A stretch of 44,175 nt of DNA. Origin: a virus. The position numbers were made by a program, and so were the translations under genes. Within the stretch, counting starts at the first letter, position 1, and each line of letters opens with the position of its first letter. The stretch is taken from IMG/VR virus record IMGVR_UViG_3300017971_000108, positions 1 to 44,175 of that record. The stretch is one strand, 5' to 3'. The notes beneath the pieces were generated by a model. It worked only from the letters and a program-made list of their open reading frames with translations. It did not search any database and was not told the origin of the DNA. Shown one piece after another: positions 22,909 to 44,175 of the stretch.

Positions 22909-22910
22909 GT

Positions 22911-26840: not shown

Positions 26841-29800
26841 TGCGTACTCCCTCCATAGACTTTCTCATACCAACGGATGCCCTCCTTGATCTCTTCGACC
26901 TCCTCGGGCGTCAGGGATTTGACGAACGCCTCTTTCTTGGCTTTCGACATCGACCCGAGCGGGTGCTGCCTGGCGATGCTCTGTGCGTATCCCTCGGCCT
27001 TCCCTCCAAGCTCAACGTACTTCTTCAACCAGGCGTCGGCGGCCTCTTGGTCGCCCCACATGAGAGCCTTCCGGTGGTAGTAAAGCGCATTGCCCCTTTC
27101 TGTGGGCGTGATTGACGGCATCTCGTCACCGAACTTCTTCTGCCACTTCACGACCAGGTCGCGGGCGTGCCAGTAGGCGGCCTCGCCGGGGTCGGTGCGG
27201 TAGAAGAGAACGGCGTCCATCAGATCGGTCAGGTTGCCGAGCGGCCCCGGAGCCTCAGACTTCGGGCGTTTCGGTATCGGCTTGCTCGTCAGTCGAGACA
27301 CCTTTCGCACCAGCCAGTCCATCGACACGGTGCGAGCCAGGTGCTCCATGCGGTTCCTGATCGGGCGCGTCCGCAGTTTCCAGGATTTGCCCTCCTCGAA
27401 GAAGCTCGGGAATGAACCGCGCCCGAGCACCAGCTCGAAGGTGGTTTTCGAGAACGGCTCCCACGACTGGATGAGGCGGTTGATCGGCGCTTTCCCGGCC
27501 TCGCTGATGATGTCGAGCGCGTCCTTTTTGCCCTTCACCCAATCCGCGATGTCCTGTGGGTAATCCTCGAGGCCGAACCACTCGAGCGCATCGGCCAGCG
27601 CCCCCTCGAACCTTACCGACCGGATCGTGCCGTCCGCACGGTGGCCGAGAATGAGGTGGAGCTGGCGACGGTTCTTGTTGATCTTCTTGTCCTCGTCCGG
27701 GAACATCAGGCGATTCCACAGCGCCACCGCGCCGTAGAGGATGTTGACCTTGAGCGCGAAGAGCGCCGCCTTCTTGGCGACCGCCCCGGCTCCGACCAAA
27801 CCGCCTCGAGCGCGGCCCCCGCCGCGGCCCTCGTGCGGGAGGTTCTTCATCAAGCGCACATAGCGCGGCGCGTTGATCTCGAGCCAGGAGTAAAACGGCA
27901 AAAGGTGACTGCGGAGCCATTGGCCGGCGGCTGAGATGTTGCCGTAGTCGCCCACCAGCTCGCGGGCGAGCTTCGCCGCCCTCTCGTTCACGTCCTCGAT
28001 CGCATCTATCTGCATCCGATTCGAGGCCGCATACACCTTGTCGCCCGCCGCAACACGCTCCTGGAAGTAGCGATAGGCGGCCAGGCGCAGGATGTTCTCG
28101 CGCCAGGTGGTGAGGTTCTTGATGCCGTGCCAGTACCCCTCTGCCGCCTTTTGGAAGGCGTTCGGGTTGTTGGTGTCGACCAGGGCCCGGAACGCGCCCG
28201 TCCTTTTGATGTCGGGAATCTCGTAGATGGTGAGGCCGGAATCGACCACACCGAGCTTCATGGCGTCCTGAATCTCCTTCGACACCGTGCGGCCCGCCCG
28301 GCCCTGGACCTGGTATTTCCAGAGATCGTCGGCGGCCTTTGCGAAGCCCTTCAATATCCGGGGGTCGTAGGCGAGCACGATGTCCAGGTCGCCGCTCATG
28401 TTGTTGAAGTTGTATTTGACGGCTCGCAGCGGGTTCAGGAGGACCCACTGTTTCCAGCTCGAGAGCAACCACCTCGCAACGTCCTCGACCTGGCCCTCGT
28501 CTCGAGGCCCCCAATTGTCGAGAGTCGCGGCCAGGCCCTCGGGGATGACCCACGTTTCTCGCGGGCCGCCGACGATGAGCATGTCGCGCACGTCCTCTTC
28601 CTGGAGGAGCTTTTCGCCAGCGAGGACCTGGTCGAGCACCTTGTCGCTGATCGTGTGGCCGAAGAAGAAGTGATGCCCTTCCTGCGGTTGCCAGGTGGTG
28701 ACTCCGGGGATGTCCTTCGCCAGCGTCCTCCAGGTGGCATACCGGCGTCCGAGGGTGCCTTTGATGAACTGCTCGCGCTCTCTGATGTTCTTGAAGATCG
28801 ACAGCGCCATGATCGGGCCTGGGTTCTCCTCGATGTCGGCGTCGGGTTGCGCGGCCAGCTCCGAAAGGAAGTGGAACCACTGAGGATGATCGAAGATGAA
28901 CGTGCCGCCGCCCTCGCCCTCGGATTCCTCCTCAGACCACGCGAGGTAGGCGTCTGCAAGCTCTTCGGTGAGATGCTCCCACCCCGGAACGAAGAGGCTG
29001 CGCTCGGCGGCCAGCTTGCCGAGGCGCTGTGTTGCTATGGCGATCCTCGAGCGGTAGTACCAGGTCGGGTGCTGCATCGGCTCCAGCTCCCAATGCTCGA
29101 GCGCCTCCGACCACGACAGGCCGAGGTCCTCGGCCCACTTCTGCTCGGCCAGGAGGTTGTTACGCTGCTTCGCCTGCTGTTTCAGCTCGGGCACGATGTC
29201 GTGAATCTCTTTCAGGCGCTCGAGGGTTTCGACCTTGGCGATCTGCGCCATCGCCTGAGCGAGATACTCGAACTCGGCCTCGTGATACGCCAGGTTGAAG
29301 TCGGAGCCGCCAGCACGTTTGCGCTGGAAGCTCTTTTTCCGCATGTGGACATCGACGCCCGCCGTGGCTCCGAGCGGGAACTGCGTTTTCGCGTTCAGGT
29401 GCTCGAGGACCTGGCGGTGGTAGTAGCGCGGATCGGACAGCACCTCTGGCCGCAGAATCCCGAGGTTAACGAGCTTCCGGGTGAGCTGCCTCTGGAGCGT
29501 CTGACGGCGCTGGACAGCGGCGAGCACGTCGGGGTTGTTCTCTACCAGGCCGCGAATCCTCGCATAGTCGGCCTCAATGTCGCGTTCCGGGTCGTAGGCT
29601 TCACCGAGCGATCGGTGGGAGTATCCGAACGGAAGCTCGGAGCGACCCTCGTACAGACCGTCCTCAACGTCCTTGATGATGTCTCCGAGCGCCAGGTAGT
29701 CGGTGAAGAGGATCATGCGCTCAGTGTCGAGGCCTTCGGTGATGTTGCGGATCATGTCGTAGGCGACCGCCCGCCCGAACTGCGGAGCGGCCCGGTACTG

Positions 29801-32800
29801 GCGCAGGATGTCGGTCGTGACCGCCATCGTGGCCGATTCGTCCGGGTTCAGATACTCGAATGAGCTGCGAAACGACCGCTTCAAATCGTTGGCCGCCTTG
29901 AGTGCTTTCTCCCTCGTCGTCTCTTCGATCGCCCCCCGCCTGGCTGCCGCTTTGCGTTCCTCGATTCCTGGGATCTGATGGCGCAACTCTGGCGGCACGA
30001 AGATCGGATCGAGCCTTGGAGCTCTACGTGCAGTAAACGGCTCGGCCAGGCGCGAAATGAGGCCGCCGAGCGGGTCGATCATGGCGTAGAAGTCGGTGGT
30101 GTTGTCGGTGAGATCGCCGTCGTCGTCGACGCCGCGCTCCCTCGGATTGGAAACGTCTGTGATGGTTTGCCCGGCGATGACCTTGTCGATGATCTTGGGG
30201 CCTTGCGCCGGATCGGTGGGCACGAAGAAACGGTTCTTGTACCCGCTCGGGCGCTCGAGCAACACGCCCATCTTCCGCAGCGGGTCGTTCCAGGCGTAGT
30301 CAGGGCCGATGATCTCGACGCGCTCTTCGCCGTGAACCATGCGCCTGGCGAACTTCCACCCATTCGCCAGCTCGACCTCGTAGTTGTCCTTGAGCACCTG
30401 GTCGAAAATCTGCTGCGCCGTCAGATCGACCTTCTTTTGGCCTGCCCCGAGCTTCTTGAGGGTCGGCCTCAGCGCGCCTTCGCGGATCATTCGGCCGAGA
30501 TGGACCCGGCCATCATCTGTTCTGATTCTGCGGATCTCGGTACGCAGGGTGTCCGGGAACCGATCCCATATCGGCAACAGAGCGCCAGTGACCAGGTGGA
30601 GATCCTGCTCGTCGAACTCTGGCACCTCTCGAGCTTGGGCGTTCCATGCCGCCTCGGCCTCTTTGCCGGTCAGCTCCTCCCAATTCTTTCCGAGAAATGC
30701 GTTCTGTGGGCGCAGGTGGCTCTTTCGATCTGGCCCCATCACGCGGTATTGAGCAAAGACGTTTCCGGTCCTTCTTTCGGTCGCCTGGCGCGAGGCGACA
30801 GCCGCCCACACCTTTTTGCTTTTCGCGTTTCTGAAAAATCGCGGGCCGCCCACCAGGCTCGTGACGTTCGGGACCTCGTCAAACGGGATCGCGTTGTTCC
30901 GCTTTTTGAAGATGATGTGGACGTAACGGCTCTGCGCCGCGCCCTCGTCGTACACGAGCTGCTCGTCCTCGACTCGAGCGCCATCGTGCAGGATCGTTTC
31001 GGTGCCGACATCGTAGGTGCCGCTGGCTTTCGCGTCGGCCACCGCCATCTCGTATTCAGACATGAACCCATCGAAAACGATGTTCTGCTGCTCGAGCGGC
31101 AGCGCCAGGACGCGATTCATAAACTTCGGCACGTCCGGCATTGAACCTTCGGCCCGCAGCCCGCCCTCTGGCGTCAGGAGGTTGAGGCCGGTGATGTCCA
31201 TGAACTCATCCAGGCCGATCGGCGCGTTCGGATCGCGGAGCGATCGGAAATAGGCGTTGAGCGCAGGTTGCGCCCAATCCGTCTCGAGGTTGTCCATCTC
31301 GGAGTAAAGCTCCTGACCCGATGCTTCCCTCGAGCCTTTGGTCAGAGCGCCGAGCTGCTGGAGCCGCCTGGCGACGGTGGATACGAACCGCTTCTCGCCC
31401 GCGAGGTTCGTCTCGGTGAGAATCCAGACGGGCGGTTGCGCCTGGCCCGAGCGGTGGGTGCGCCCGAGCGCCTGGATAGCCTGGTCGGCCCGCCATCCCG
31501 CCTCGAGCACGTAATGACGCCGAAGCGCCTGGTTCTTCGCCTCGAGCGAGGCGTGATAGCTGTGGCCGGTCCCGCCCGCGTCCATCGAGAACACGAGGAT
31601 CTTCTTTTTTCCAGCCATGAAGGCGTTGCGGTCGGCGGTCGCGTGGCGGGCGCTGCGCTTCTCGATGTGCCACCGTTTCTTGACCTCGTCGTAGACGCGC
31701 CGTTTCGAGCGCCCCGTGACCTCGGCCACGTTCTTCGGCCCGAAGTGATTGACGATCTGATCGAGCGGCAGCTCGGGCATCTTCATGCCGCCGAGCTTGT
31801 CGAGGAGCGCGTCTCGCAGCGCCACGGCCTCGGGGTCGAGCACCGCCTGGCCGGTGTCGGGGTCGAGCACCTCGCGGGTCTGCGTGTTGCCCTCCTCGTC
31901 CTCATACTCCTCGTACTTCTTCACGGGGAACGCAGACTCGAGGTAGTGCATCACAATGCCCATCGAGTCGATCTCGATGTCCTGGATCTCGTCCTGGCTG
32001 AGATTCTGCGCGAGCGCCCGATCGAGCGCGGCCTCGCCCGTGTGCTTCACCTGGATCACTGGAGAATGACCGGCCTCGAGGTCCCGCTCCATCGCCTTGA
32101 TGATGGTCGGGGCCTTCAACGAGGCCAGGAACGTATTGAAGAATCGCTGCTGATCGCCGTAGAACCTGGATTTTGCGCTTCGGGCCGCCTGGCTCGTGCG
32201 CTGATTTCCGTACTCGTCCTCTGTCACCTGGCCGGTGGCGAGAAGCGCCTTCTCGACGTTGTTGAAGATGATGCGCCACGCCTCGGCCACGGTGTCGTAC
32301 ATCTGCCGTTGCTCGGCGGTCAGCTCGTGGGTGAGGCGTTCGTACTCCACGTCGAGCACGAGGTTGCGGGCGATGTAGAGGCCGAGCCTCTTCATGTCCT
32401 GGGCGACGATCTCCATAGCGGAGAGGCCGCCTTTCACCATCTCGTTGACGAAGTCCTCCCTCGAGGCGAACGGTGTGCCAGGACCCCACAGGCCGAGTCG
32501 AGCACCGAAGGCCAGGTTGCGGATCTCGGTCGCGCCGGTTGCGGAGGCGTAGAGCACTCGAGCGTCCGGTACGGCGTTCTGGAGCTTCCACCCCGCCATG
32601 CCGCGTTTCGATGGCGGCCTGGTGCCGATGTTCATGCGCTCGGCCATCGAGTTGCCCATGAGGTGAGCTTCGTCAAACGCGATCACGCCGTCGAAGTCCT
32701 CACCGAGCCACTCGAGCACCTGGTCGAGCCGTGACACGTCGTTTTCGTCGCCCTTGCCCTGCCGGTTGCTCACCAGCGTCGCGTAGGTGAGGTAGAGGAT

Positions 32801-35800
32801 TCCTTCCTTCCGTTTGATCTCCTCACCGAGCTTTGGCACCTTGAACATCGCGCTCGTGGGGAACCCCATCGAGCCAAGCTCTTCACGGAAGTCGTCCCAC
32901 AGCTTCGAGTCGGGCGAGAGCACCACCGCCTTCTTCCGGCCCTGGTGCCAGTTGTCGAGGATGACGCCGCCGATCACGCGGGTTTTGCCGACGCCAGTAC
33001 CGTCACCGACAAAGAAGCCTTTTCGGGTTTCGCCATCCGGGAGCATTTCGGAGTGAGCCGCCCCGGCATAGACGATCGGCTCGAGCTGCGCCTCGGAGAT
33101 CGCGCCGGACTCGATGACCTTCTTCGGAATGGCGAGCGCATACTCGACCTCCGGGAGATCAATCGAACCCATGATGAGCGACTCGGAAAGCGGTGTTGGG
33201 TGAGGTTTCGATCCGCGTACCGTGAGCGTTGGAGTGAACGGCGAGAAGATGTCGCCCTGGTCCTGCTCTTTCGGATCACCGATCTTGTCGAGGCGATCGA
33301 CCCTTAGAGACTCATCCCCGCGGTCTTGTACCCGTTGTCCTGTTGAATCAGGCCGTCGTGCAGTTCCTCGGCCAGCGCGCTCGCCAGCTCCACCGGGCTC
33401 GCCTGGTTCAGTTCCCTCGACGACATCGGTATCTCCCACGGCGGTCTCGTCGACAGTTGCAGGACGCTGAACACCTCCTGCGGACTCTTCGCCTCCAGTA
33501 GCAGGAGATACTCCAGTAGGAGATCCTTCCGTTCCGGCATCGGTCCCTCCCACTCGTCCTGGAGGAGTAGCAGCAACGTCAACATCGACAGTTGGTTCTT
33601 CGGCCTCGGCTGCCCCAACTTCTTCAACGCCCGCGCCGACGCCTTCTCCAGCGGGTGATTCCGGTACTTGAGTGGGATGCCGCCGTTCATTTCTGACCTC
33701 CCTTAGAATATCGGTCAGTTCTTCGAGATTCGCAACCTCTTTCGACACTGGAGACTTACCGATGAGGACCTGTTGCCCTTCCGGCAGCTTGTCGATGATG
33801 AGGATGCGGGTGTGGAAATTCGTGCCGTGGGTGGCGTAGACGCTGCCCGGAACGCGCACATTCGCTTTCAGGTCGCCCCCGGCCTCTTTGATCTTCTTGA
33901 AGTCGGCCCGGTAGCCTGGGGATTCATGGTGCGCCCCACCGTTCGGCCCGGCGTTGCCGAGGCCGCCACCGACGATCGCCACCACGCGCCCGTTTTCCGG
34001 CAGGAGCTTCACGGCCTGGAGCACATGCCGCATCCCGACGTGAATCTGGCGCTTGCCCTTCTTTTTCACGTCCCTCGAGAACGGAGGATTCATCACCACC
34101 ACGGTCGGGTTCTCCCCGGCCTTGGACATGAACGCCTGGAGGTGGTCGGCGTCGTAGGGATAAACGGCGTCCACGTCGCGGATCGCGCCGAGGAGTGTTC
34201 GCCTTCCCGCGTCGATCTCGTTTCCGATGACCCTGGCGGGGTTGTAGGCGAAGGCTTGAGCGATGATGTTGCCGGTGCCGGCCGATGGCTCGAGCACGAT
34301 GTCGTTCTCCGAGATGTTCGCCAACCAGGCAACGACCGCCGCATAGCTCGGCGGGGTCGAAAACTGCTGGAGATCGGATCGCTTCTCAGACCTGGCCGGT
34401 TGTTTCGGCAGCTTCTTGGTTTTCTCGTCGAGGCGGCGAACGACCTTGCTCAAGTCGGCGGCGCTTTCGATTCCTGCAAACCTCGCCCCGGCGTTGTTGA
34501 AGGCCGCCTCGAGCACGTCGTAAACGTCCGACTCCTGGTAGGCCACCTCGGCCCTGGTCCCGCCGTAAACCTCGTCAGCGATCTCGAATATCCGCTCGCT
34601 CGTCAACGGGCGCAGCGGCTCCCCGGTTGCTCCAAGCTCGTCCTGAAGCCGTTTCATCAGCTCGATGTCCTGTGCCTCGCGCCCTGATGGGGCTGGCGCA
34701 GGCTCCGCAGGGGCCTCCTCTGCGGGTTCGCTAATCTCCGGGGTTTCCACCGCCTCGGCCTCTGGCGCAGTCTCAGCGGCTTCTGTGGGCGCTCCGACAG
34801 TTTCTTCGATGGCGTCGACCACCTTCTCCAGAAGCTCGAGGTAGGCAGCTCGGACAGCTTTCGGCGGCTTTTCCTTGCGCTCGAGGAGTGAGAACCAGTT
34901 GTTGATCTTGCTGCGGATCTCCTCGAGCTTTTGCCGGTTGCCTATGGCGTCCGCGATTTGCTTCTCGAAGTTGGCAACGGCCGGTGGCAACGTAACGCCC
35001 TCGGTGGCCTTTTTCCGCGCCTCGCGTTCCTCGCGCCGCGTGATGACCGCATGAGCCGCTGCCGATGAGTCTCGTATTTCTCGTGCCAGCTCGAGGTCGA
35101 TCTTTCGGCCCTTGTAGCGTTTTTCGATGACCGCGTCCTCGGGGATCGTGTCGCCGCCGTAGAAATAGCGAGCGGCGTCCACCATGTCTTGCAGATTCTT
35201 GTCGTAGGCGTTGTAAAACGGCGTGTCCTCGATTTCGTAGTCGCGCTTGTACGGTGGCTCTTTCGCTTTCTTCTTGCCTTTTATCGAGTCGGGCAGCTTC
35301 GCTTGTGCTCGAGCCTTTTGCAGTCGTTTCGTGAGATCGCCGTATCGCCCTTGTGCGCCCTCCTTGGCCGTGCCCTCTTCTACCCTGTCCCACCAGTCGT
35401 TGATCGCCTTGAGGAGCTGATCGAACGCCACCAGGTCGCTCGGGCGCTTCTCCACCTGGGCGATGACGCGGTCGAGGGCACCGTCCCACCGATCAAGCTC
35501 ATCGGTGATTTTGAGGAGATCGGCCCCTGCCGGTGACAGCTCAGGCTCTTCTGCCGCCTCGGCCTTTTTGTAGTGACCGAAAACAGTCGTGAGGATCTTC
35601 TCAATCGCGGTGTCCTTCGACCAGGCGTTTGGACCCGCGCCGCCTTTTTCGGTCGTGACGTTCCCTTCGGCCTCGCGGTAAAACCACCCGTTCGGCCCCT
35701 CGTGGATCGAAAACGTGCGGCCGAGCGCCGTCGTAGTCGAACCATTCTCTTCGAGCTGGCGTCTCATGCCCTCGGGCGTTTTCGCTTCCTCGACGGCCCG

Positions 35801-38800
35801 CGAATCGGGATGGGCCTTCATCGGTGGCCGGTCGTGCCGCAGCCGCTTGAGGTTCATCCGAGCTTGAAGGTTGGGCTCGAGATCGTAAAGCAGTTTGTCC
35901 TCGCGCCGCTCGTAAGCAAGCTCGACCTGTTTCTGCGTCCAGACATCGGCCTCCCGCGCCTCGTCCCTGATCGCATCCAGGTCCTCGAGGGTTTCTGCCT
36001 GGCTCATTCGCTTGGCGATCTCAGCGCCCGTGACCTTCTTTTTCGCCGTCTCCTTCACGCGCTCGAGGAACGGGAGCGGCTTGTTCGCCCTGGCCTCCTT
36101 GCCCTCGTAGGCGTCTCGAGCGATTTGGATGATCTTGCGTTCTCCGAGCTGCTGGAGGAGGTCACCGACCGTCGTGCCGATGTCGCTTTCGAGCTGGCCC
36201 TCCTTAGTGTTGCGTTTCACCGCATCATCGAAAAGGATCTGGTAGACCTCCTCGACGAACTCCTCGCGCTCATCCTCGTCGCGGAGAATCTCATCCTCTC
36301 GACCGACGATCGCATCGGCCCACAGGCGCGTGAGCGTGTTCGTGGCCTCCTCGGTCGGTCTGTAGGTGGCGTTTGGCCCGGCAACGAATCCGCGCTCTCT
36401 GGCCGGTGCGGCCTTCTCTGCCTCGCCAGGCACAGCGATGTTGAACGCACGTCGTATCGCATCGACGAGCTTCTTTCCTTTAATTGTGAACTCAACGTCG
36501 TCAGGTCCGCGAACCGAAATCGAAACAGACTTGCCGGAACCTCGGTGGTCCGCGAAGTAGCCCTCTGGCCCGCCAGCTCGCACGATGTTGGTACCGCCGT
36601 AGCCTGTGATGCCGGTCCCATATCCCTTGGCGGCGTACTCGGCTATCTCGGCGTTTGTGCGGGGGGTCTTGGCCCACTCCTCGATTTTCTCTGTTTGGTT
36701 TTGAACCAGCGAGAACATCGAGCGAACGGCGTAGACCTCGAGCTGCTCCCGTGACGGTGCCTCTACTTCTTCTTCTGCCTCGGCTTCACGCGCACCTTCA
36801 TCTTCCCGTTCGGGTTCAGCTTCTTCATCCGGTTCAGCCACTCCAGCGTCGTCTCGCCCGGTTGTTGGTTCAGGCTCGACGCCCCGAGCTTCGGCCGCCG
36901 CTTCGCGCCGCGCCCCTTTGCCCTCTTTGTCCCGGTAGAGCGCCGCGTCAGCTTCTTCAAGAGTGTTGCCAATGCCATAGGAGGCTCCAATATACCCGGT
37001 CGCCGTCGAACCGTCCTCGTTTTCTACCTCGATTTCGATGTTTTCGATCTCGTTGCGAATGAACTCGGCCAAATCCTCGAGCACCCCGACTTGGTTCGTG
37101 CCCAAGACGGCGAACTCATCACCGCCGCGTCGGAATCCCTCGAAGCCATCGGCTCTGTCGAGCGCCTCCGAAATGATCTCCCCGACCTGGCGCAACGCCT
37201 CGTCGCCCGCGGCGTGGCCTAGACTGTCATTCAGCTCCTTGAAGTCGTCCAGGTCGAGATACAGGTGCCGAGAGCCTGTCGGTGCCTCGTCGACGGCCCG
37301 TTGGTGCGCTCCCTGGTTTCGCAGTCCGGTCAGTGTGTCCGTCTCGCCGCGCCGCTGAATCTCCTCTGCGAACGCTTCGGCCTCGTCCATGCGGCCAGAG
37401 CGCATGAGCTGTTTCAGCCTGGCGGCCTCGTCTCCTCGGATGCCAGGCGGGATTGTAGGGCGGCCGGGTTTCCGGCGATCGGTAGGTTTTTCCTCGCTCT
37501 TGGTTTTGAGGACGGCATCACCATGCGAGAGATCCACCGCGTCGAGGCCGGTCCCGGCCTTAGCTGTGTCAGAGACGGGTTCCTTGAGCTGGACGCGACC
37601 GAGCGCCTCCTCTCGTGTCAGGAACTCGCCTGTGTTGTGGTCATAGAACCCAAGCTCCACATCCTCATCGACGGGAGCCTGGTGAATAGCCCCGGTTCTC
37701 ACCACCTCGCCCGTGTCCTGGAACCTGTGAGCCGCCTCGAGGCCGGTCGGTCCCGGCTCGAACTCTGGCGCGGCCTCTTCTTCCTCCTCGAGCGGAAACG
37801 CCTTTTCTGCGGCCTGGGCCGCTTCCTCGAAGGTGTCGAACTCCCCGATGATCTCGCCTTGATTGGTGGTTGCGGCGAACCTGTTCGGTTTGCCGTCGAT
37901 CTCCACCTCGACGATAGCCGCTTTCCCATCATCGAGGAACGCCTCCGGTTCGCCGGGCATCGCGCCAGGATCGGCGGTCCACCTCGGGCCTGGAGGCCGA
38001 CGCGGAAGGGCCTCACCACTCGGCTCTACCTCGGCCGGTTCCGTGGGCGGCATCTCCTCGATCGGCGGCACGGTCGGCCCGCCTGTGACCTCTGGCGATG
38101 ATCCGAGCGGTGGCACCTGGCGCTGCTCGAGCGTCGAGCGAATGATGTCCTGGATGCCTCGAGCGGGGATCTGCGGCGCGGCCATCTCTCGGGCGATCGC
38201 CTGTTGCCTTTGAAGCTCGAGGAATTTCTGCCTCACGACCTCTTGAGACAACACGCGGGGGTCCGCGACCATGTCGCCACCACCGAAGGCCCCCATGATC
38301 GGCGCGATGACTCCTGCCGCCGCTGCTGCACCAATGGCCTCGGGCTGCGTCTGTTTGATGACGCGCATCCCCTCTTCCCAATCGCTCGCGGTGAACTTTG
38401 CCCGGTTGGCCGCTGCGAACTCTGTGGCGAGGGCCTCGACGATCTCCTGCGCGTACTCGGTGGGCATCTCCTGGCCCATTTGTGTGCCGATCGACTTCAT
38501 GCGGTTGCCGACCCACCTCACGGCATCGTCGCCCATTGAGGTGCGGCGCAACCACGACATGATCGGCGCGGCCTCGAGGGCGCCAGCGACCACGCCGCCG
38601 GTCACAGCGGTATACGGGTCGACCTGGCCCTCGTCGGCCATCTGCTGCTGCGCGATGATCCCGGTCTCCATCGCCATCGCGGTGGGCGCGACGGCTCCGG
38701 GTCCTGCAATCGTTCCGGTTCCCACCAGGCCCAAGATGATGGGGGCCTGTTCACCGAACACGTTGACGACCCACGAGGTCATGTCCTCGGGCGTTTTGAT

Positions 38801-39454
38801 GTCGAACACCGATCGCGGTCCCTCGAGCGGCACGGTGCTCGCCACATCGGCGGCCCGTTGTGACGCTTCGTAGAACTGCTGCGCTGCCGGGTCGAAGCTC
38901 GGGTGGAGATCGGCCAGCACACCAGCGGCGGCAGGAACGAAGCCGCCAGCTCGAGCGAACCCTGCCTCGAGCGCACGAGCGGCGGGAGCGCGATCGCCAG
39001 CGGCGAGGTCCTCGTAGCCAGAGGCCGCCATTTGCAGACCGCGGCTCGGGGCCGAGATGATGTCCCCGAGCTTCTGAGCGTAGGCTGCCGGGTCCGCGAT
39101 CGCCTCGGTGATCTGATCCCACGTCAGGGATTTCGCCAGGTGGCCGAGGTACTCGTCGGGCTTCTCGAAGAAACCGCCGAGGGTTGGCGCGGGAGCGGGG
39201 GTGACGCCCGATTTCGCCCGATCGAGTCCGGTGAGTGCCCCTTGCGCCGCTGTGACGCGACCGAACTCCGAAACGGGCGGCACCACCCGCTGCCCACTCA
39301 CTTCTTCCGTATATTTGTCGATCGCCTGCTGGATGACATGATCGGGCGTACCCTTCTCAAACTCGAGGATGTCCACGGTCCCATCGGGCCGAACGTATTC
39401 GATCTCCTCGAACTCCCGGTTGAGCGGAGAGCTTGGCAGGCGTGGTTCGGGCAT
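26837..39454 (-). CDS. Giant polyvalent virion protein: GGDEF, DNA methylase and Strawberry-notch helicase
   Basis: The protein has about 4,205 aa. The ATG at 39454 is preferred; a GTG at 39472 overlaps the upstream stop without a ribosome site. Order: an N-terminal motif EYVRPDGTVDILEFEKGT; hydrophobic segments (about 235-400) that could enter membranes; a complete GGDEF domain (about 703-841, with DLDDFKELND and RRGGDEF, the latter at 775-781); polar linkers; a methylase-like fold (about 1690-1910, with LEPSAGTGN and NPPF at 1789); and a Strawberry-notch-type SF2 helicase (Walker A GDGTGVGKT near 2150, DEAH near 2261, QALGRTHRSGQ near 2661). The C-terminal third resembles large ejected polyvalent proteins. 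Injection with DNA and early anti-host action are inferred from this family. Confidence 0.85.
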   Translation of the reverse strand: MPEPRLPSSPLNREFEEIEYVRPDGTVDILEFEKGTPDHVIQQAIDKYTEEVSGQRVVPPVSEFGRVTAAQGALTGLDRAKSGVTPAPAPTLGGFFEKPDEYLGHLAKSLTWDQITEAIADPAAYAQKLGDIISAPSRGLQMAASGYEDLAAGDRAPAARALEAGFARAGGFVPAAAGVLADLHPSFDPAAQQFYEASQRAADVASTVPLEGPRSVFDIKTPEDMTSWVVNVFGEQAPIILGLVGTGTIAGPGAVAPTAMAMETGIIAQQQMADEGQVDPYTAVTGGVVAGALEAAPIMSWLRRTSMGDDAVRWVGNRMKSIGTQMGQEMPTEYAQEIVEALATEFAAANRAKFTASDWEEGMRVIKQTQPEAIGAAAAAGVIAPIMGAFGGGDMVADPRVLSQEVVRQKFLELQRQQAIAREMAAPQIPARGIQDIIRSTLEQRQVPPLGSSPEVTGGPTVPPIEEMPPTEPAEVEPSGEALPRRPPGPRWTADPGAMPGEPEAFLDDGKAAIVEVEIDGKPNRFAATTNQGEIIGEFDTFEEAAQAAEKAFPLEEEEEAAPEFEPGPTGLEAAHRFQDTGEVVRTGAIHQAPVDEDVELGFYDHNTGEFLTREEALGRVQLKEPVSDTAKAGTGLDAVDLSHGDAVLKTKSEEKPTDRRKPGRPTIPPGIRGDEAARLKQLMRSGRMDEAEAFAEEIQRRGETDTLTGLRNQGAHQRAVDEAPTGSRHLYLDLDDFKELNDSLGHAAGDEALRQVGEIISEALDRADGFEGFRRGGDEFAVLGTNQVGVLEDLAEFIRNEIENIEIEVENEDGSTATGYIGASYGIGNTLEEADAALYRDKEGKGARREAAAEARGVEPEPTTGRDDAGVAEPDEEAEPEREDEGAREAEAEEEVEAPSREQLEVYAVRSMFSLVQNQTEKIEEWAKTPRTNAEIAEYAAKGYGTGITGYGGTNIVRAGGPEGYFADHRGSGKSVSISVRGPDDVEFTIKGKKLVDAIRRAFNIAVPGEAEKAAPARERGFVAGPNATYRPTEEATNTLTRLWADAIVGREDEILRDEDEREEFVEEVYQILFDDAVKRNTKEGQLESDIGTTVGDLLQQLGERKIIQIARDAYEGKEARANKPLPFLERVKETAKKKVTGAEIAKRMSQAETLEDLDAIRDEAREADVWTQKQVELAYERREDKLLYDLEPNLQARMNLKRLRHDRPPMKAHPDSRAVEEAKTPEGMRRQLEENGSTTTALGRTFSIHEGPNGWFYREAEGNVTTEKGGAGPNAWSKDTAIEKILTTVFGHYKKAEAAEEPELSPAGADLLKITDELDRWDGALDRVIAQVEKRPSDLVAFDQLLKAINDWWDRVEEGTAKEGAQGRYGDLTKRLQKARAQAKLPDSIKGKKKAKEPPYKRDYEIEDTPFYNAYDKNLQDMVDAARYFYGGDTIPEDAVIEKRYKGRKIDLELAREIRDSSAAAHAVITRREEREARKKATEGVTLPPAVANFEKQIADAIGNRQKLEEIRSKINNWFSLLERKEKPPKAVRAAYLELLEKVVDAIEETVGAPTEAAETAPEAEAVETPEISEPAEEAPAEPAPAPSGREAQDIELMKRLQDELGATGEPLRPLTSERIFEIADEVYGGTRAEVAYQESDVYDVLEAAFNNAGARFAGIESAADLSKVVRRLDEKTKKLPKQPARSEKRSDLQQFSTPPSYAAVVAWLANISENDIVLEPSAGTGNIIAQAFAYNPARVIGNEIDAGRRTLLGAIRDVDAVYPYDADHLQAFMSKAGENPTVVVMNPPFSRDVKKKGKRQIHVGMRHVLQAVKLLPENGRVVAIVGGGLGNAGPNGGAHHESPGYRADFKKIKEAGGDLKANVRVPGSVYATHGTNFHTRILIIDKLPEGQQVLIGKSPVSKEVANLEELTDILREVRNERRHPTQVPESPAGEGVGAGVEEVGAAEAEEPTVDVDVAATPPGRVGGTDAGTEGSPTGVSPATGGEESAGGVQRPATVDETAVGDTDVVEGTEPGEPGGAGERAGRGTARRPDSTGQRVQDRGDESLRVDRLDKIGDPKEQDQGDIFSPFTPTLTVRGSKPHPTPLSESLIMGSIDLPEVEYALAIPKKVIESGAISEAQLEPIVYAGAAHSEMLPDGETRKGFFVGDGTGVGKTRVIGGVILDNWHQGRKKAVVLSPDSKLWDDFREELGSMGFPTSAMFKVPKLGEEIKRKEGILYLTYATLVSNRQGKGDENDVSRLDQVLEWLGEDFDGVIAFDEAHLMGNSMAERMNIGTRPPSKRGMAGWKLQNAVPDARVLYASATGATEIRNLAFGARLGLWGPGTPFASREDFVNEMVKGGLSAMEIVAQDMKRLGLYIARNLVLDVEYERLTHELTAEQRQMYDTVAEAWRIIFNNVEKALLATGQVTEDEYGNQRTSQAARSAKSRFYGDQQRFFNTFLASLKAPTIIKAMERDLEAGHSPVIQVKHTGEAALDRALAQNLSQDEIQDIEIDSMGIVMHYLESAFPVKKYEEYEDEEGNTQTREVLDPDTGQAVLDPEAVALRDALLDKLGGMKMPELPLDQIVNHFGPKNVAEVTGRSKRRVYDEVKKRWHIEKRSARHATADRNAFMAGKKKILVFSMDAGGTGHSYHASLEAKNQALRRHYVLEAGWRADQAIQALGRTHRSGQAQPPVWILTETNLAGEKRFVSTVARRLQQLGALTKGSREASGQELYSEMDNLETDWAQPALNAYFRSLRDPNAPIGLDEFMDITGLNLLTPEGGLRAEGSMPDVPKFMNRVLALPLEQQNIVFDGFMSEYEMAVADAKASGTYDVGTETILHDGARVEDEQLVYDEGAAQSRYVHIIFKKRNNAIPFDEVPNVTSLVGGPRFFRNAKSKKVWAAVASRQATERRTGNVFAQYRVMGPDRKSHLRPQNAFLGKNWEELTGKEAEAAWNAQAREVPEFDEQDLHLVTGALLPIWDRFPDTLRTEIRRIRTDDGRVHLGRMIREGALRPTLKKLGAGQKKVDLTAQQIFDQVLKDNYEVELANGWKFARRMVHGEERVEIIGPDYAWNDPLRKMGVLLERPSGYKNRFFVPTDPAQGPKIIDKVIAGQTITDVSNPRERGVDDDGDLTDNTTDFYAMIDPLGGLISRLAEPFTARRAPRLDPIFVPPELRHQIPGIEERKAAARRGAIEETTREKALKAANDLKRSFRSSFEYLNPDESATMAVTTDILRQYRAAPQFGRAVAYDMIRNITEGLDTERMILFTDYLALGDIIKDVEDGLYEGRSELPFGYSHRSLGEAYDPERDIEADYARIRGLVENNPDVLAAVQRRQTLQRQLTRKLVNLGILRPEVLSDPRYYHRQVLEHLNAKTQFPLGATAGVDVHMRKKSFQRKRAGGSDFNLAYHEAEFEYLAQAMAQIAKVETLERLKEIHDIVPELKQQAKQRNNLLAEQKWAEDLGLSWSEALEHWELEPMQHPTWYYRSRIAIATQRLGKLAAERSLFVPGWEHLTEELADAYLAWSEEESEGEGGGTFIFDHPQWFHFLSELAAQPDADIEENPGPIMALSIFKNIREREQFIKGTLGRRYATWRTLAKDIPGVTTWQPQEGHHFFFGHTISDKVLDQVLAGEKLLQEEDVRDMLIVGGPRETWVIPEGLAATLDNWGPRDEGQVEDVARWLLSSWKQWVLLNPLRAVKYNFNNMSGDLDIVLAYDPRILKGFAKAADDLWKYQVQGRAGRTVSKEIQDAMKLGVVDSGLTIYEIPDIKRTGAFRALVDTNNPNAFQKAAEGYWHGIKNLTTWRENILRLAAYRYFQERVAAGDKVYAASNRMQIDAIEDVNERAAKLARELVGDYGNISAAGQWLRSHLLPFYSWLEINAPRYVRLMKNLPHEGRGGGRARGGLVGAGAVAKKAALFALKVNILYGAVALWNRLMFPDEDKKINKNRRQLHLILGHRADGTIRSVRFEGALADALEWFGLEDYPQDIADWVKGKKDALDIISEAGKAPINRLIQSWEPFSKTTFELVLGRGSFPSFFEEGKSWKLRTRPIRNRMEHLARTVSMDWLVRKVSRLTSKPIPKRPKSEAPGPLGNLTDLMDAVLFYRTDPGEAAYWHARDLVVKWQKKFGDEMPSITPTERGNALYYHRKALMWGDQEAADAWLKKYVELGGKAEGYAQSIARQHPLGSMSKAKKEAFVKSLTPEEVEEIKEGIRWYEKVYGGSTQ
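33304..33690 (-). CDS. Overprinted gene B nested in the giant gene (linker after methylase)
   Basis: The protein has 128 aa, read in the frame whose first base is the giant frame's second. AAGGGAGG lies exactly six bases before the ATG at 33690. The product is a well-mixed helical protein (HPLEKASARALKKLGQPRPK, then LSMLTLLLLLQDEWEG and KDLLLEYLLLLEAKSPQEVF), unlike a random shadow. Counting by hand, about 85% of its codons end in G or C, while the overlapping giant frame falls to about 40% and gives only Gly/Glu/Thr/Val-rich low complexity. Function is unknown; the Leu-rich core suggests protein interaction. Confidence 0.68.
   Translation of the reverse strand: MNGGIPLKYRNHPLEKASARALKKLGQPRPKNQLSMLTLLLLLQDEWEGPMPERKDLLLEYLLLLEAKSPQEVFSVLQLSTRPPWEIPMSSRELNQASPVELASALAEELHDGLIQQDNGYKTAGMSL
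36763..36978 (-). CDS. Overprinted gene A nested in the giant gene (linker after GGDEF)
   Basis: The protein has 71 aa. The ATG at 36978 has GGAG six bases upstream. It uses the same relative frame as nested gene B. The product is strongly basic: LATLLKKLTRRSTGTKRAKG, then NQQPGETTLEWLNRMKKLNP and a terminal VRVKPRQKKK. Almost 90% of codons end in G or C by hand count, whereas the giant frame there is about half and encodes an acidic Glu/Ala linker. The first 25 codons overlap the end of the GGDEF domain. A nucleic-acid-binding role is possible. Confidence 0.55.
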   Translation of the reverse strand: MALATLLKKLTRRSTGTKRAKGRGAKRRPKLGASSLNQQPGETTLEWLNRMKKLNPNGKMKVRVKPRQKKK

Positions 39455-39462
39455 GGTTTCGC

Positions 39463-40659
39463 CTATTCCCACTGACCAGTCGCGGCGTTGTACCTACGCC
39501 TGGTCGGCGTCGGTGTCGGTGCGGGCGTTGGTGACGTTGGTGTGTGCGAGACGGCAGCGTTACCGAGCGACGGGTTCGCGGTCTGCCCGGTGACGCCGCT
39601 CTCGAGCATCGACATGAGCGAGGACTGCATTTGCCGGAAGCTCGTGAGCTTCTCCTGGATCGCTACCGCCTGGCCCTCGTCCGCGAACTTGGCCTGGAGC
39701 TCCAGGTCGCCCAATGTGCTGTTGACCGAGTCGAGGAGTTGCGCCACCTCTTTCACATCGAGCTTCTGGCCCTGCTCGTACTGCGCCTTGAAAATCTCGT
39801 GCTTCTCTTCGGCCATCTCGAGCGCCCGCTGCGATCTGGCGTTGTCGGTCGCCATGTTCGCCGCTGCTCGAGCGTCGGCGCGTTCGGCTCTTTCTGAGGC
39901 AGTCTCTTGTAGCTCGAGGCCCCGGTCGGCCCTTTCCGCGCCTCTGCGAGCCAGGCCGAGCTGCTCCTCGGCTCTCGCATCACTTTTTGACCGCCAACTC
40001 TGTGTGTCCTCGTAACGCTCGGCGTCGAGGGTCTTGCTTTCCTCGTAACGCTCCTCCGAGGTTTCGCGGGCCTCCTCCCGTGCTCTGATCTGTTCCATCT
40101 GCATCGGCGTGATCGCGCCCGCTGCCGCCATCCTGGCGAGGTACTCGTCTCGCGTCATGGCCTTTTTCTCTGCCGGTGCGGCCTTTTTCGAGAGGAGGGT
40201 CGAAATCTTGTTCGGTGACAGCTCCGCGCCCGCTGTCATCGACGGTTCGGGCTTGCCGTAGGTTTCGGCCAGCGATCGGCCACCGCCGCCGAGGCCGAGT
40301 CCAGGCGTCTCTCGCCCTTCCTTGAACATCATGTCGGTGCCGAGGGTGAACTTCCCGCCCTCATTGCCGAACGCAGGATCTCCCGCGTTGGCCGGCGTCT
40401 CGACCTTCGAGCCTGCCCCGCCCCCGTAGTAGTCGGCCATCAGCTCCGAGAGCTTCTTCTGCCGCCGACCCTCTTTCAACATGCTCCAGGCCCCGAGGCC
40501 GGTGCGGACACCGACAGCGGCCAGGGGAGAGCCAGAGGCCAGAACGCCAAGACCGATCGGGACGCCGATGTTTTTCAGTACGTCGAGAGCCTTGCTTCCA
40601 CCGCCGCCGCCAACCGCGCCGCCAGCTCCCGCTCCAGCTCCACCACCGCCTTGCGCCAT
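39463..40659 (-). CDS. Coiled-coil internal virion protein candidate
   Basis: The protein has 398 aa. The ATG at 40659 shares a base with the upstream stop (TGATG). A Gly/Ala-rich N-terminus with a hydrophobic stretch (VPIGLGVLASGSPLAAVGVR) leads to a long charged coiled coil (about 190-330; EEARETSEERYEESKTLDAE). It ends with a Pro/Thr stretch and RRRYNAATGQWE. Its place just upstream of the giant gene, and the build, fit proteins ejected with the genome. No enzymatic motif is seen. Confidence 0.6.
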   Translation of the reverse strand: MAQGGGGAGAGAGGAVGGGGGSKALDVLKNIGVPIGLGVLASGSPLAAVGVRTGLGAWSMLKEGRRQKKLSELMADYYGGGAGSKVETPANAGDPAFGNEGGKFTLGTDMMFKEGRETPGLGLGGGGRSLAETYGKPEPSMTAGAELSPNKISTLLSKKAAPAEKKAMTRDEYLARMAAAGAITPMQMEQIRAREEARETSEERYEESKTLDAERYEDTQSWRSKSDARAEEQLGLARRGAERADRGLELQETASERAERADARAAANMATDNARSQRALEMAEEKHEIFKAQYEQGQKLDVKEVAQLLDSVNSTLGDLELQAKFADEGQAVAIQEKLTSFRQMQSSLMSMLESGVTGQTANPSLGNAAVSHTPTSPTPAPTPTPTRRRYNAATGQWE

Positions 40660-41072
40660 CACGCACCCCCCCACAGCTTTTGCGCCCACGCCATGTATTC
40701 AGGGCTTTGCCAGGCTGCGCTCTGATTCTTCTGATACCCGGCCATACTCCCGGCCTTCGCCTCTTCCATCGCCTGCCTCTGTGGCGCGGCCATCATGTTG
40801 TAGGCGTCCATTCCGTAGCCGACAGGCCCCATGACGCCGCTGGCTTTTTCGCTGCCGCTCTTGAGCCATTCCCAAATCGGGAGACTGCCGCCGCTGCCGG
40901 GCTTCTTTTCTCCACCCGCGCCACCGCCGCCTCCACCACCTCCACCGCCCCAACCACCGTAGTAGCTCGAGCCTGGGAGTCTGCCCGAGCCACCGCCCGC
41001 GCCGCCGCTCTTCGCGCTGTTTTGATCCTGGTTTCTCGGGGTGACTGTGATCTCATCGTAGAAAGTTGTCAT
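40659..41072 (-). CDS. Gly-rich virion protein
   Basis: The protein has 137 aa. The N-terminal 60 residues include a run of glycines (about 40-52). The rest is helical with aromatic residues (LPIWEWLKSGSEKASGVMGP, YNMMAAPQRQAMEEAKAG) and ends AWAQKLWGGA. The sequence style matches the neighbouring virion proteins and suggests an internal or tail-tip protein. Confidence 0.55.
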   Translation of the reverse strand: MTTFYDEITVTPRNQDQNSAKSGGAGGGSGRLPGSSYYGGWGGGGGGGGGGAGGEKKPGSGGSLPIWEWLKSGSEKASGVMGPVGYGMDAYNMMAAPQRQAMEEAKAGSMAGYQKNQSAAWQSPEYMAWAQKLWGGA

Positions 41073-41081
41073 GTCGGCCCC

Positions 41082-42104
41082 CTAGAACTTGTTCTGCCGG
41101 GTGGTCGTGGTCGACCCCATCGTGGCTGGCAACAGCGAGGCCAGCGGCCCGAGGTTGATGCGCTCGGATGCTCCGATGAGTCGTTGCCGCTCGCGTTCCT
41201 GGGCGTCCATCTCGGCCTGTGTGATCGCTCGGCCTTCCCTGCCCTGCGCCGATGCCGCCTGGATCGCTGCGAAGCGCCTGGCGTCCGTGTCGCGTCCCTG
41301 CTGGCCGAATCCCTGTCCTGCGGCGATGAGCCGATCCGCATCGCCGGATTCGATGTCTAGGCCCTTGAAGATCGTCGGCATGAGATAGGACGCCTTGGCC
41401 TTCGCCAGAGCGACATTCTCAGCCGTCCCGGCGTCCTGTCCGGTGAGCGCGGCCTGGTTGAGCACCGAGGGCCGAATCGACTCCTCGAACACGCTCAGGG
41501 CCTCCTGGAGCGCGGGCATGTCCTTGAGGCTTTTGCCTGACACGCCCTCGGATGCCTTCGTGTAGGCCGCCGTGGCCTTGAGAGCATCGCCCGATCGTTC
41601 ACCAGCTCCCGGAATCCGGCCAGCGGCCCAATCCTCGAGGGCCGACGAACCCGCGACCTGGGCGGGGTTCCACGCATACGCGCCTTGATCTGGCCGCCAG
41701 GTGGTGTCGGAGCCTTCGGGAATCCACCAATTCGACGGGGTTGCATCGGGCTGCGAGCCAGTGCCGCCAGGCGACACCCTGCGACCGCCGCGCCGCATCC
41801 TCGTGGTGCCGTCGCCAGTCAACGACGGATCTGGCAGCGCCGTGGTTTCCTTCGATACGCGAGAACCACTTCGCCGCCGACCGCCACCACCGCCGCCACC
41901 GCCGCCACCGCCGCCCCCGGTGCCTCCCGAGCCGCCGCCTCCTCCGAAGAGCGGGAGCTGCGACATCCCACCGAGAGCGTTCTGAACGACCTGGGTGTAG
42001 TACGGCTTCCACTCTGCCGGGATCTCGGACGAGGTGGTTGAGGTGCCACCGCCGCCCATCCCGTGACAGGCGAAACGCTCTGCAAGCTGGATCATCTTTC
42101 TCAT
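41082..42104 (-). CDS. Tail or internal virion protein with Gly-rich linker
   Basis: The protein has 340 aa. The ATG at 42104 overlaps the acetyltransferase stop (ATGA). Near the N-terminus IPAEWKPYYTQVVQNALGGM is followed by a Gly-rich stretch (about 55-80). The rest is helical (SLKDMPALQEALSVFEESIR; TAENVALAKAKASYLMPTIF) and ends with a Thr/Arg-rich tail, TTTTRQNKF. The pattern is shared with other podovirus proteins encoded before the ejected giant protein; no enzyme signature is visible. Confidence 0.55.
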   Translation of the reverse strand: MRKMIQLAERFACHGMGGGGTSTTSSEIPAEWKPYYTQVVQNALGGMSQLPLFGGGGGSGGTGGGGGGGGGGGGGRRRSGSRVSKETTALPDPSLTGDGTTRMRRGGRRVSPGGTGSQPDATPSNWWIPEGSDTTWRPDQGAYAWNPAQVAGSSALEDWAAGRIPGAGERSGDALKATAAYTKASEGVSGKSLKDMPALQEALSVFEESIRPSVLNQAALTGQDAGTAENVALAKAKASYLMPTIFKGLDIESGDADRLIAAGQGFGQQGRDTDARRFAAIQAASAQGREGRAITQAEMDAQERERQRLIGASERINLGPLASLLPATMGSTTTTRQNKF

Positions 42105-42583
42105 GGGTCAATCCTCCGTGAAAGCACAAGGTTGCGGACATCAAAGCCGCCGTATCGCGGAAGCCGGTAGAGACGAGCGTGGGACTGCGAATAGGCCGAA
42201 ACGAGGATCTCGTGACACCCGTGGCCCGCTGCCCATTCCTCGATCTCGGCAAATCCCTGTTCGACCAGGTCGCCCCAATGGAACCCGCGATCGAGTGCGA
42301 AGAATCCAATCCAGCATTGGCGACGGTTTTCGTAGCCCACGTCGATGCGGGCGATGATGTGGCCGTGAACCTCGGTTTCGTTCACGGCGACGATAAAGAG
42401 GTAGCGAGCCACGTCGGGATCGTGGCAGAACGACTCGACCAGGTGCTCACCAAGCTCGCGTCCGTCCGTCTCCGCGTTCGGGTCGGCCTGGCAGGCCGCC
42501 GTGACGCGCTCGAGGGCCGGTTCGAGCCACTCTGACGATCCTGGGACCGTCTTGTGGAGCTTTACCATCGTCAACTCGCTCAT
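42101..42583 (-). CDS. GNAT-family acetyltransferase
   Basis: The protein has 160 aa. The ATG at 42583 overlaps the upstream stop (ATGA). The strand-helix order fits GNAT: RYLFIVAVNETEVHGHIIAR (beta4 region), then FALDRGFHWGDLVEQGFAEI, HEILVSAYSQSHARLYRLPR and YGGFDVRNLVLSRR. The usual Q/R-x-x-G-x-G/A coenzyme-A loop is not well conserved (GFHWGDLVEQG). The substrate is unknown; genes of this kind within phage tail clusters may modify virion or host proteins. Confidence 0.65.
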   Translation of the reverse strand: MSELTMVKLHKTVPGSSEWLEPALERVTAACQADPNAETDGRELGEHLVESFCHDPDVARYLFIVAVNETEVHGHIIARIDVGYENRRQCWIGFFALDRGFHWGDLVEQGFAEIEEWAAGHGCHEILVSAYSQSHARLYRLPRYGGFDVRNLVLSRRIDP

Positions 42584-43266
42584 TCCCAAGCTCCGATCAC
42601 CTGCATGAGCTGGCGGTAGATTTCGTAAAAGACCTGGTCGATGTTCCCGTAGGTGATCGCTGGAGCCACAGTCACATCGTCAAAGAAGGCGTGGACGCCC
42701 CCGCCGGCCCCTACAGGACTCCAGAGGATGACGTGGGTGGCGTTCGCTCCAGGCGTGAACGACGCTGTCACGAGCGTCCAGGTGGCCGCGGTTACGCCCG
42801 TCGAGGTGGCCGCGATCGGGCTCGATCCTCCCGAATCATAAATCTGATAGAAGCCCGCGTTGCTGCCGTCGCCCTTTGTCCAGAACTGAACGATGTGGGT
42901 GCCCGAAAGGGTTCCGAGGTTCTGACCGACTCGAGAGCGATCGCCCACAGCGGGCGCGCTGAGTTTCACGCTCTGGAAGCCAGAATATCCCTCACGCTCG
43001 ATGGTGGCCACACCGTTGACGGTGAGAGTTTCGTACCAGCTCACCAGGTCGCCGGTTGCCGATTCCTCGAAGCCTGGATCGCTCACGGTGTTGAGGCCCG
43101 AAGCGCCGATGCCGAGGTTCCCGCCCACCAGGCCGTCAATCTCCTCGATGCGCTCGGCCAGCTCCTTGTCGCGGTCTGCGAGCGCCTCGAAAATCTCGCG
43201 CTCCCGATCCGTCTCCGGTCGCGGGAGGATGATCTGCGACGACAGGGAGGGATTGTCTACAGTCAT
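42580..43266 (-). CDS. Tail protein with carbohydrate-binding-like C-terminal domain
   Basis: The protein has 228 aa. The ATG at 43266 shares a base with the nozzle stop (TGATG). An N-terminal helix (ETDREREIFEALADRDKELA) is followed by a beta-sandwich with carbohydrate-binding-module pattern (NTVSDPGFEESATGDLVSWY, then ATWTLVTASFTPGANATHVI and FFDDVTVAPA). The C-terminus is helical (IDQVFYEIYRQLMQVIGAWE). The layout fits a tail-tip or adsorption protein, with the helix for attachment to the nozzle. Confidence 0.65.
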   Translation of the reverse strand: MTVDNPSLSSQIILPRPETDREREIFEALADRDKELAERIEEIDGLVGGNLGIGASGLNTVSDPGFEESATGDLVSWYETLTVNGVATIEREGYSGFQSVKLSAPAVGDRSRVGQNLGTLSGTHIVQFWTKGDGSNAGFYQIYDSGGSSPIAATSTGVTAATWTLVTASFTPGANATHVILWSPVGAGGGVHAFFDDVTVAPAITYGNIDQVFYEIYRQLMQVIGAWE

Positions 43267-44175
43267 CAGTCACCTATCGGGTCGGCAACGACCTGGGTTC
43301 CACGCCACTCGACACGCGCCGTGGCATCTCCTGAATAGCGAAGAGAGAACATCGAGCCACGAAGCCGGTGATGCGTCTCGCGCCGGTTGCGTCCGGCAGC
43401 GAGGGACAACGTGATGGCTTTCGCAGTCTCGAGGGTCCTGTCCTCTCCGAACTGCGAAGCCCCGAACTGCACGTCGATTTCTTGATCGCTCGCGGTCGGC
43501 TCGATGAGATGGTTCGCGTACCGGATGACGGCGGCCTGGCGGGGATCGCCCGCAGGCTTGATCCCGGTTTCGATGTAGTGGGTGATGGCCTCTCCAGCAT
43601 CATCGTCACCGATCATCTCGTAGAGCTGCCCGTCCTCGTCGACACAGATCATTTGATTCTTGAGCGTTTCAAAAGAGCTGTAGGCTACCGGGTGCTCGGA
43701 GTATGCGCCGACCACGTCGGCATAGGCGATGCCTCCGACCAGGCGGGCGAAGATCCCGGCGCTCACTGGAATGTCCCACCGCATCGGCCAGAGCGAGAGA
43801 TCGCTCATCTTGAGGATGAAACCGCCGTAGAGGTCGTCCGACCCGACCGTGACGTAGTGGACGTGCAGCTCGTCGAGGATCGGATCATAGGCGAGCCAGG
43901 ATCGGTGTCGCTCGTCCAGGTGCATCGTGTTGCGGACGAAGGCGTGAATACGATCGTCGTTCTGGTCGCGCTGGATGACATTCAGGGCCGAGCCGTTGAA
44001 GGCCCGCAGCGTGGCATCTCGAGCGAGGTAGATGTGTCCCATCGGCGTCGGGATACACGCTCGAGCGGCCACAGGACCCTCGATTCCCTTCTCGAAGAGA
44101 TCGAACCGGAACGGGAACTCGCCGCCAGTCGCGGTGGCGACATAGATCGCGTCATCCATGTAGATGCCGACGCGC
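43266..44175 (-). CDS. Beta-propeller-like tail nozzle protein, C-terminal part (continues at 1-776)
   Basis: This is the remainder of the 520-aa nozzle gene, with 44053-44175 duplicating 1-123. Beta repeats continue: HIYLARDATLRAFNGSALNV, RSWLAYDPILDELHVHYVT, YGGFILKMSDLSLWPMRW, then QLYEMIGDDDAGEAITHYIE. The last 60 residues (LETAKAITLSLAAGRNRRET) form a separate beta region. The join was checked by frame: 776 plus 787 bases make 521 codons including the stop. Confidence 0.7.
   Translation of the reverse strand, partial: RVGIYMDDAIYVATATGGEFPFRFDLFEKGIEGPVAARACIPTPMGHIYLARDATLRAFNGSALNVIQRDQNDDRIHAFVRNTMHLDERHRSWLAYDPILDELHVHYVTVGSDDLYGGFILKMSDLSLWPMRWDIPVSAGIFARLVGGIAYADVVGAYSEHPVAYSSFETLKNQMICVDEDGQLYEMIGDDDAGEAITHYIETGIKPAGDPRQAAVIRYANHLIEPTASDQEIDVQFGASQFGEDRTLETAKAITLSLAAGRNRRETHHRLRGSMFSLRYSGDATARVEWRGTQVVADPIGD
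44053..44175. repeat. Terminal direct repeat, right copy (contig overlap)
   Basis: This is an exact copy of bases 1-123. Removing one copy restores the single open nozzle gene and gives the 44,052-bp circular unit. Confidence 0.95.

Follow-up and report, generated by a model that had tools for sequence, protein, structure and literature searches.

Cyclic di-GMP governs the bacterial switch between swimming and biofilm formation, controls pili and flagella, which serve as phage receptors, and feeds some defence pathways. The viral DNA analysed here, a stretch of 44,175 nucleotides referred to below as the window, encodes a GGDEF (diguanylate cyclase) domain within a single protein of more than four thousand residues. 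This raises the question of whether the domain is a working cyclase and, if so, at which moment of the infection it would act.

The phage genome and its giant gene

The first and last 123 bases of the window are identical, so that the window represents a complete genome closing circularly at 44,052 bp. Its record is listed as linear and without end repeats, yet the direct terminal repeat is exact. An open reading frame (ORF) of about 580 residues spans the joined ends of the closed genome. The following features were located, the minus strand being that of the giant gene:

1-123, no strand: direct terminal repeat, left copy, identical to 44053-44175
2985-4163, minus strand: major head protein
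5838-7937, minus strand: portal or head-tail adaptor
8330-9364, minus strand: terminase large subunit (weak match)
11394-11975, minus strand: terminase small subunit
22258-23885, minus strand: recombination exonucleases, a Cas4-type gene (phrog_1990) adjoining a RecE-like gene (phrog_10477)
26837-39472, minus strand: giant ORF of 4,211 uninterrupted codons, a polyvalent DarB-like protein (PHROG, PADLOC and Pfam domains)
39463-40689, minus strand: Gly/Ala-rich ORF of 408 residues, sharing 10 bases with the start of the giant
41082-42104, minus strand: ORF of 340 residues, matching in position only the DNA ejection protein gene of relatives
44053-44175, no strand: direct terminal repeat, right copy, identical to 1-123

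On the closed circle, the head-tail block finishes with the giant gene. The window comprises the whole genome (44 kb) of a tailed phage, whose structural module has the giant gene as its last member. Elsewhere in the genome, the Cas4-type and RecE-like exonuclease genes make up a recombination module. In the cluster upstream of the giant, positions 42101-42589 give a weak match to a GNAT acetyltransferase (E = 0.004), below the Pfam cut-off.

Counted from a GTG at 39472, the giant protein has 4,211 residues; counted from an in-frame ATG at 39454 it has 4,205, the length given in the original prediction. Four domains were delimited in it, all encoded on the minus strand:

36917-37342, minus strand: GGDEF (diguanylate cyclase) domain, residues 711-852 (PF00990, AlphaFold model and fold matches)
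33773-34468, minus strand: DNA adenine methyltransferase domain, residues ~1669-1900 (PHROG 799 and 6263; PADLOC mad2, E = 1.1e-9)
32291-33205, minus strand: AAA_34, Strawberry-notch-type SF2 ATPase lobe, residues 2090-2394 (PF13872, E = 1e-100)
30998-31768, minus strand: Helicase_C_4, Strawberry notch C-terminal domain, residues 2569-2825 (PF13871, E = 3.1e-81)

The methyltransferase carries the motifs LEPSAGTGNI at residue 1727 and NPPF at 1795. AAA_34, with its Walker A motif GDGTGVGKT at 2156 and DEAH at 2267, and Helicase_C_4 constitute the two lobes of one Strawberry-notch SF2 ATPase. The dyad typical of DarB-like proteins, an N6-adenine methyltransferase with an SNF2-related SF2 ATPase immediately after it, is present here. 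Because this methyltransferase and helicase share one ORF with the GGDEF domain, the giant qualifies as a polyvalent protein, i.e. a phage-encoded protein with at least two unrelated enzymatic domains, here the GGDEF domain, the adenine methyltransferase and the Strawberry-notch ATPase. In the giant protein, no LPD domain reached E ≤ 0.1 in the Pfam search, and neither an ART nor a peptidase domain was detected there. Among annotated phages, no megablast match to the helicase part was found.

The GGDEF domain

The giant ORF matches PF00990 far beyond chance. The protein search gave 72.9 bits (cut-off 23.8; E = 3.3e-20) over profile positions 3-158 of 161, and the genome search placed the match at 36917-37342 with E = 1.2e-23. 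The best matches of a single genome scan resemble cellular cyclases. The motifs follow one another as DTLTGLRN (residues 712-719), DLDDFKELNDSLGHAAGD (740-757), FRRGGDEF (780-787), SYGIGN (831-836) and ADAALY (841-846). A complete GGDEF domain with its motifs in order and its metal and substrate residues present had been proposed, and the full-length profile match bears this out. We take D740, K745, N748, D757, GGDEF 783-787 and K849 to be the equivalents of PleD D327, K332, N335, D344, GGDEF and K442, respectively. In the family alignment, the functional positions map as follows:

37253-37255, minus strand: Asp740, metal-binding (equivalent of PleD D327)
37202-37231, minus strand: Asn748 to Asp757, guanine-binding (equivalents of PleD N335 and D344)
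37127-37153, minus strand: place of the RxxD inhibition site, where the motif is absent
37112-37126, minus strand: GGDEF signature loop, residues 783-787, with the first G kept in the window
36926-36928, minus strand: Lys849, phosphate-contacting (equivalent of PleD K442)

The inhibition site had been described as altered, which agrees with the alignment: at the canonical positions relative to GG, Ala stands at -9 and Phe at -6. RxxD sites are found in some cyclases only and do not define GGDEF domains. After ALYRDK, the Arg/Lys pattern of the window lacks one residue compared with the usual KxxGR/KGR and the final helix is atypical, which leaves the equivalent of PleD R446 uncertain. Asp757, at the position of PleD D344 that bears on GTP selectivity, and Asn748 are both as in c-di-GMP enzymes, and this pattern of residues favours c-di-GMP over cGAMP as the putative product.

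The domain was modelled with AlphaFold2 from an alignment of the window's sequence with 31 viral and 11 bacterial relatives. The model has a mean pLDDT of 95.0 and a pTM of 0.86, and its closest solved structures are WspR, DgcB, PleD with c-di-GMP, SadC and DosC (E ~1e-12 to 1e-11). A sequence profile of the same alignment recovers the same solved cyclases. A structure model compared with PleD had accompanied the original prediction as a proposed check; the AlphaFold2 model has PleD among its best structural matches, and the window's domain is confidently predicted to adopt an active-like cyclase fold. Among predicted viral structures, the matches include a 1,143-residue entry, gp350 of phage G, the SP-15 diguanylate cyclase and the GGDEF protein of Bordetella phage CN1.

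Relatives in other viruses

Relatives of the giant were sought through its helicase region and through the GGDEF family alignment. The helicase-region scan matched nine viral contigs. A GGDEF domain is present in one of these nine and therefore appears to be optional in giants of the helicase type; of the remaining eight contigs, at least L002 ends before that region. L002 is the closest relative (~76% identical over the C-terminal 2,429 residues). Among viral contigs, no close relative covering the window's GGDEF domain or N-terminus was found. The contig among the nine that has the GGDEF domain, the independent L009, encodes a 3,864-residue ORF with the order GGDEF, methyltransferase and Strawberry-notch ATPase seen in the window.

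The GGDEF family alignment matched 68 viral contigs, in 51 of which the domain lies inside an ORF of more than 1,200 residues (~46 once near-identical pairs are removed). Fourteen of these giants were scanned with Pfam. All had the GGDEF domain, accompanied by RadC (6), InPase (6), LPD38 (4), ART-PolyVal (4), LPD1 (3) or the Strawberry-notch helicase (2). Since RadC, InPase, ART-PolyVal, LPD38 and LPD1 are hallmark domains of polyvalent proteins, the scanned giants belong to that class.

Cyclases release pyrophosphate, and an inorganic pyrophosphatase could pull their reaction. InPase was found in 13/52 GGDEF giants (among them L028, L030, L033, L034, L035, L037, L041, L054, L063 and L069), often within 250 residues of the GGDEF domain. 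A functional pairing of the two domains was considered and dropped, as InPase is very common in phage giants (at least 600 stretches) and no enrichment can be demonstrated. Conversely, among the matches listed, 3 of 80 InPase ORFs carry a GGDEF domain, the query being one of the three.

A careful tree was built from 52 rows (28 viral, 23 bacterial and the window). One branch (99/95) separates off the viral rows and another (100/98) the bacterial rows. The window's domain sits on the branch between them, and a larger quick tree agrees at a weak node (77). Given this placement between viral and bacterial rows, the domain either diverged early in the viral line or was captured separately; it appears to branch beside the viral clade rather than inside it. 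Most of the ~46 non-redundant contigs with GGDEF giants form this viral clade, which usually reads SGDEF and bears the signature D[AV]DSLKW[VI]ND...YHxSGDEF, in place of which the window reads DLDDFKELND...FRRGGDEF. Its members also include free-standing proteins, namely gp44 of phage YuA and those of many other Pseudomonas phages and of Bordetella phages CN1, CN2, FP1 and MW2.

Conservation of the catalytic site and loss of the brake

Residues were counted over 62 alignable sequences of the viral family. The equivalents of PleD D327, K332, N335, G343 and K442, as well as the D and E of GGDEF, are invariant (62/62). The position of PleD D344 is Asp in 56 sequences, Asn in 5 and Thr in 1. The first G of GGDEF, kept in the window, is Ser in 48 of the 62, and the preceding Arg is His in 43. 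SGDEF enzymes can be active, as ECA3270 is reported to be, although VCA0965 lost its activity when mutated to SGDEF (cited in PMC3974145).

The RxxD motif is present in 3 of 65 viral rows vs 18 of 40 bacterial homologues, and two of the three viral rows that bear it are bacterial-type rows in the larger quick tree. The dN/dS ratios of close viral pairs, where estimable, range from 0.10 to 0.35; these values concern relatives rather than the window's own copy. The relatives of the window's domain are under purifying selection. In receptor-type GGDEF domains the active site has usually decayed, and RxxD may persist. The invariant core residues, the near disappearance of RxxD and the low dN/dS describe the opposite case, a preserved catalytic site that has lost its brake.

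Comparison with known systems

The occurrence of GGDEF domains in polyvalent proteins was described by Iyer et al. (2017), who called them 'not very widespread' (PMC5512222). In that work, injected polyvalent enzymes were proposed to make cyclic nucleotides as signals, which were suggested to disturb host (nucleotide) responses or to be activated against rivals (Iyer et al. 2017; PMC5512222). The window's protein belongs to the kind described there, and the central idea is already published (PMC5512222). As far as the open-access literature shows, three elements are new: the number of viral carriers, the SGDEF clade joining the giants with YuA gp44, and catalytic conservation contrasted with RxxD loss.

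The closest published case by description is the prophage protein WP_004096050.1 of Acetonema longum, which, like the window's giant, combines a GGDEF domain, a SWI2/SNF2 ATPase and an adenine methyltransferase (PMC5512222). The Acetonema protein also has zincin and ART domains, whereas the window has a Strawberry-notch ATPase and offers a complete 44-kb phage genome. Strawberry-notch ATPases are known from polyvalent proteins, as are methyltransferase-helicase dyads, for which DarB is the archetype (PMC5512222). DarB of phage P1, a virion-borne anti-restriction protein (PMC5512222), is likewise a large phage protein in which an N6-adenine methyltransferase precedes an SNF2-related SF2 ATPase. 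The window's giant differs from it by its Strawberry-notch version of the ATPase, a 700-residue N-terminal extension and the GGDEF domain. P1 DarB is about half the size of the window's giant and, to our knowledge, carries no GGDEF domain.

Bacterial cyclases such as PleD, WspR and DgcB are regulated by receiver or sensor domains, PleD and WspR also through RxxD. The window's domain has the fold and all core catalytic residues in common with these three enzymes; in contrast to them it has no RxxD and no recognised sensor. YuA gp44 and the Bordetella CN1 protein (Mesyanzhinovviridae) are phage-encoded GGDEF proteins like that of the window, which branches next to their clade. Unlike the window's domain, they are free-standing, of about 150 residues, and usually read SGDEF.

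Probable delivery with the DNA and rival readings

In several relatives, virion genes adjoin the giants. A DNA ejection protein (phrog_4287) is encoded just upstream of the GGDEF giant in L028 and L030, and an internal virion protein (phrog_511) just upstream of the giant in L033 and L050, which have the GGDEF domain, and in L006, which lacks it. The succession of ORFs in the window (340 residues, 408 residues, giant) is similar, and the 408-residue ORF corresponds in position to the gene that precedes the giants in relatives. The DarB analogy and the gene order in relatives make delivery likely: the giant is probably carried in the head and leaves it together with the phage DNA.

The giant protein would enter the cell with the phage DNA. 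There, the methyltransferase and the Strawberry-notch ATPase would most likely modify the incoming DNA or track along it, in a DarB-like anti-restriction role. The GGDEF domain, free of feedback, would convert host GTP to c-di-GMP as infection begins. The most probable benefit would be an altered cell state, with loss of motility or pili, matrix production and possibly exclusion of later phages, or else a disturbed nucleotide-based defence. This explanation, a packaged and ejected giant whose working, feedback-free cyclase makes c-di-GMP at the start of infection and changes the host's state or defence, is the best we can offer, and we put it at an even chance. Several points count against it. 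GGDEF enzymes need to form dimers, and a protein of this size may not dimerise through this domain. The 340- and 408-residue ORFs upstream of the giant have no homology to ejection proteins in phmmer and hhalign comparisons. The domain is optional among helicase-type giants, lies between viral and bacterial cyclases in the tree and ends in an atypical helix, and the search of viral contigs gave no close relative covering it from which selection on this copy could be measured.

It was essentially this interpretation, an injected enzyme acting at the first moment of infection, that the original prediction put forward. It is supported in part, by a complete GGDEF domain with all core catalytic residues, a confidently predicted cyclase fold, the missing RxxD, a giant of a class believed to be injected and, in relatives, a position in the ejection cluster; catalysis, packaging, ejection and host effect of the window's giant are what we infer from them.

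The cyclase could also be active but act after its synthesis in the infected cell, late or in the lysogen, as a conversion factor or a late regulator. YuA gp44 and the CN1 homologue are encoded ahead of the terminase genes in a non-structural region, outside the virion module, as would suit such a role, and in some strains lysogens of Bordetella phage LK3, whose GGDEF gene is free-standing, show 2-4 times more biofilm, the cause not being shown (PMC8471281). We nevertheless regard late action of the giant as unlikely, for it ends the structural module, giants of relatives adjoin ejection genes and the DarB-like partners would be most useful on DNA that is just entering the cell.

A non-enzymatic function, as a nucleotide-binding module or structural spacer comparable to degenerate GGDEF receptors, would fit the optional presence of the domain, the atypical C-terminal helix of the window, the D344 to N replacements (5/62 relatives) and the prevalence of SGDEF. 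The invariance of D327, K332, N335, DE and K442 combined with the loss of RxxD is the reverse of the receptor type, and together with purifying selection in relatives and the confident active-like predicted fold it renders this function rather improbable.

Another possibility is a different product, such as 3',3'-cGAMP, another dinucleotide or a linear molecule, serving as decoy or competitor for nucleotide-activated defence effectors. This would accord with the interference with host nucleotide responses proposed by Iyer et al. (PMC5512222) and with the Asn or Thr found at D344 in 6/62 relatives. The window itself has Asp757 at the GTP-selectivity position along with Asn748, as c-di-GMP enzymes do. 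We know of no defence target for such a decoy, and we give a different product little credence.

Finally, mis-assembly of a bacterial GGDEF domain into a phage contig, to which the position outside the viral clade might point, was rejected as exceedingly improbable in view of the single 4,211-codon frame, the base composition, phage-like throughout the domain (by codon position it equals that of the rest of the gene, GC3 being slightly lower), the closure by an exact 123-bp repeat and the same domain order in the independent contig L009.

Scope among phages and free-standing relatives

If the ejected-cyclase explanation is true, a brake-free enzyme arriving with the DNA would let the phage set the c-di-GMP switch before any phage gene is expressed. 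With ~46 non-redundant viral contigs, GGDEF giants are far commoner than the 'not very widespread' of 2017 suggested (PMC5512222). As a tentative generalisation, possible rather than probable, many tailed-phage lineages may have evolved their own branch of unregulated cyclases, delivered by the virion in giants, with a pulse of c-di-GMP at DNA entry as a common strategy. A direct test in laboratory strains is feasible, since these ~46 contigs are complemented by cultured phages (YuA, Bordetella) with free-standing homologues.

The YuA GGDEF gene lies directly upstream of an anti-restriction gene, and an anti-restriction neighbour also accompanies the free-standing gene in L075 (Pfam) and CN1 (annotation). 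It is absent in the more distant members sampled; a general link between free-standing GGDEF genes and anti-restriction was therefore rejected, the shared neighbourhood probably reflecting shared descent. Other neighbours were observed after free-standing viral GGDEF genes: a RyR-domain gene in L080 (11049-11561; Pfam E = 1.2e-10) and a gene for a sigma-70-family factor in L085 (10575-11189).
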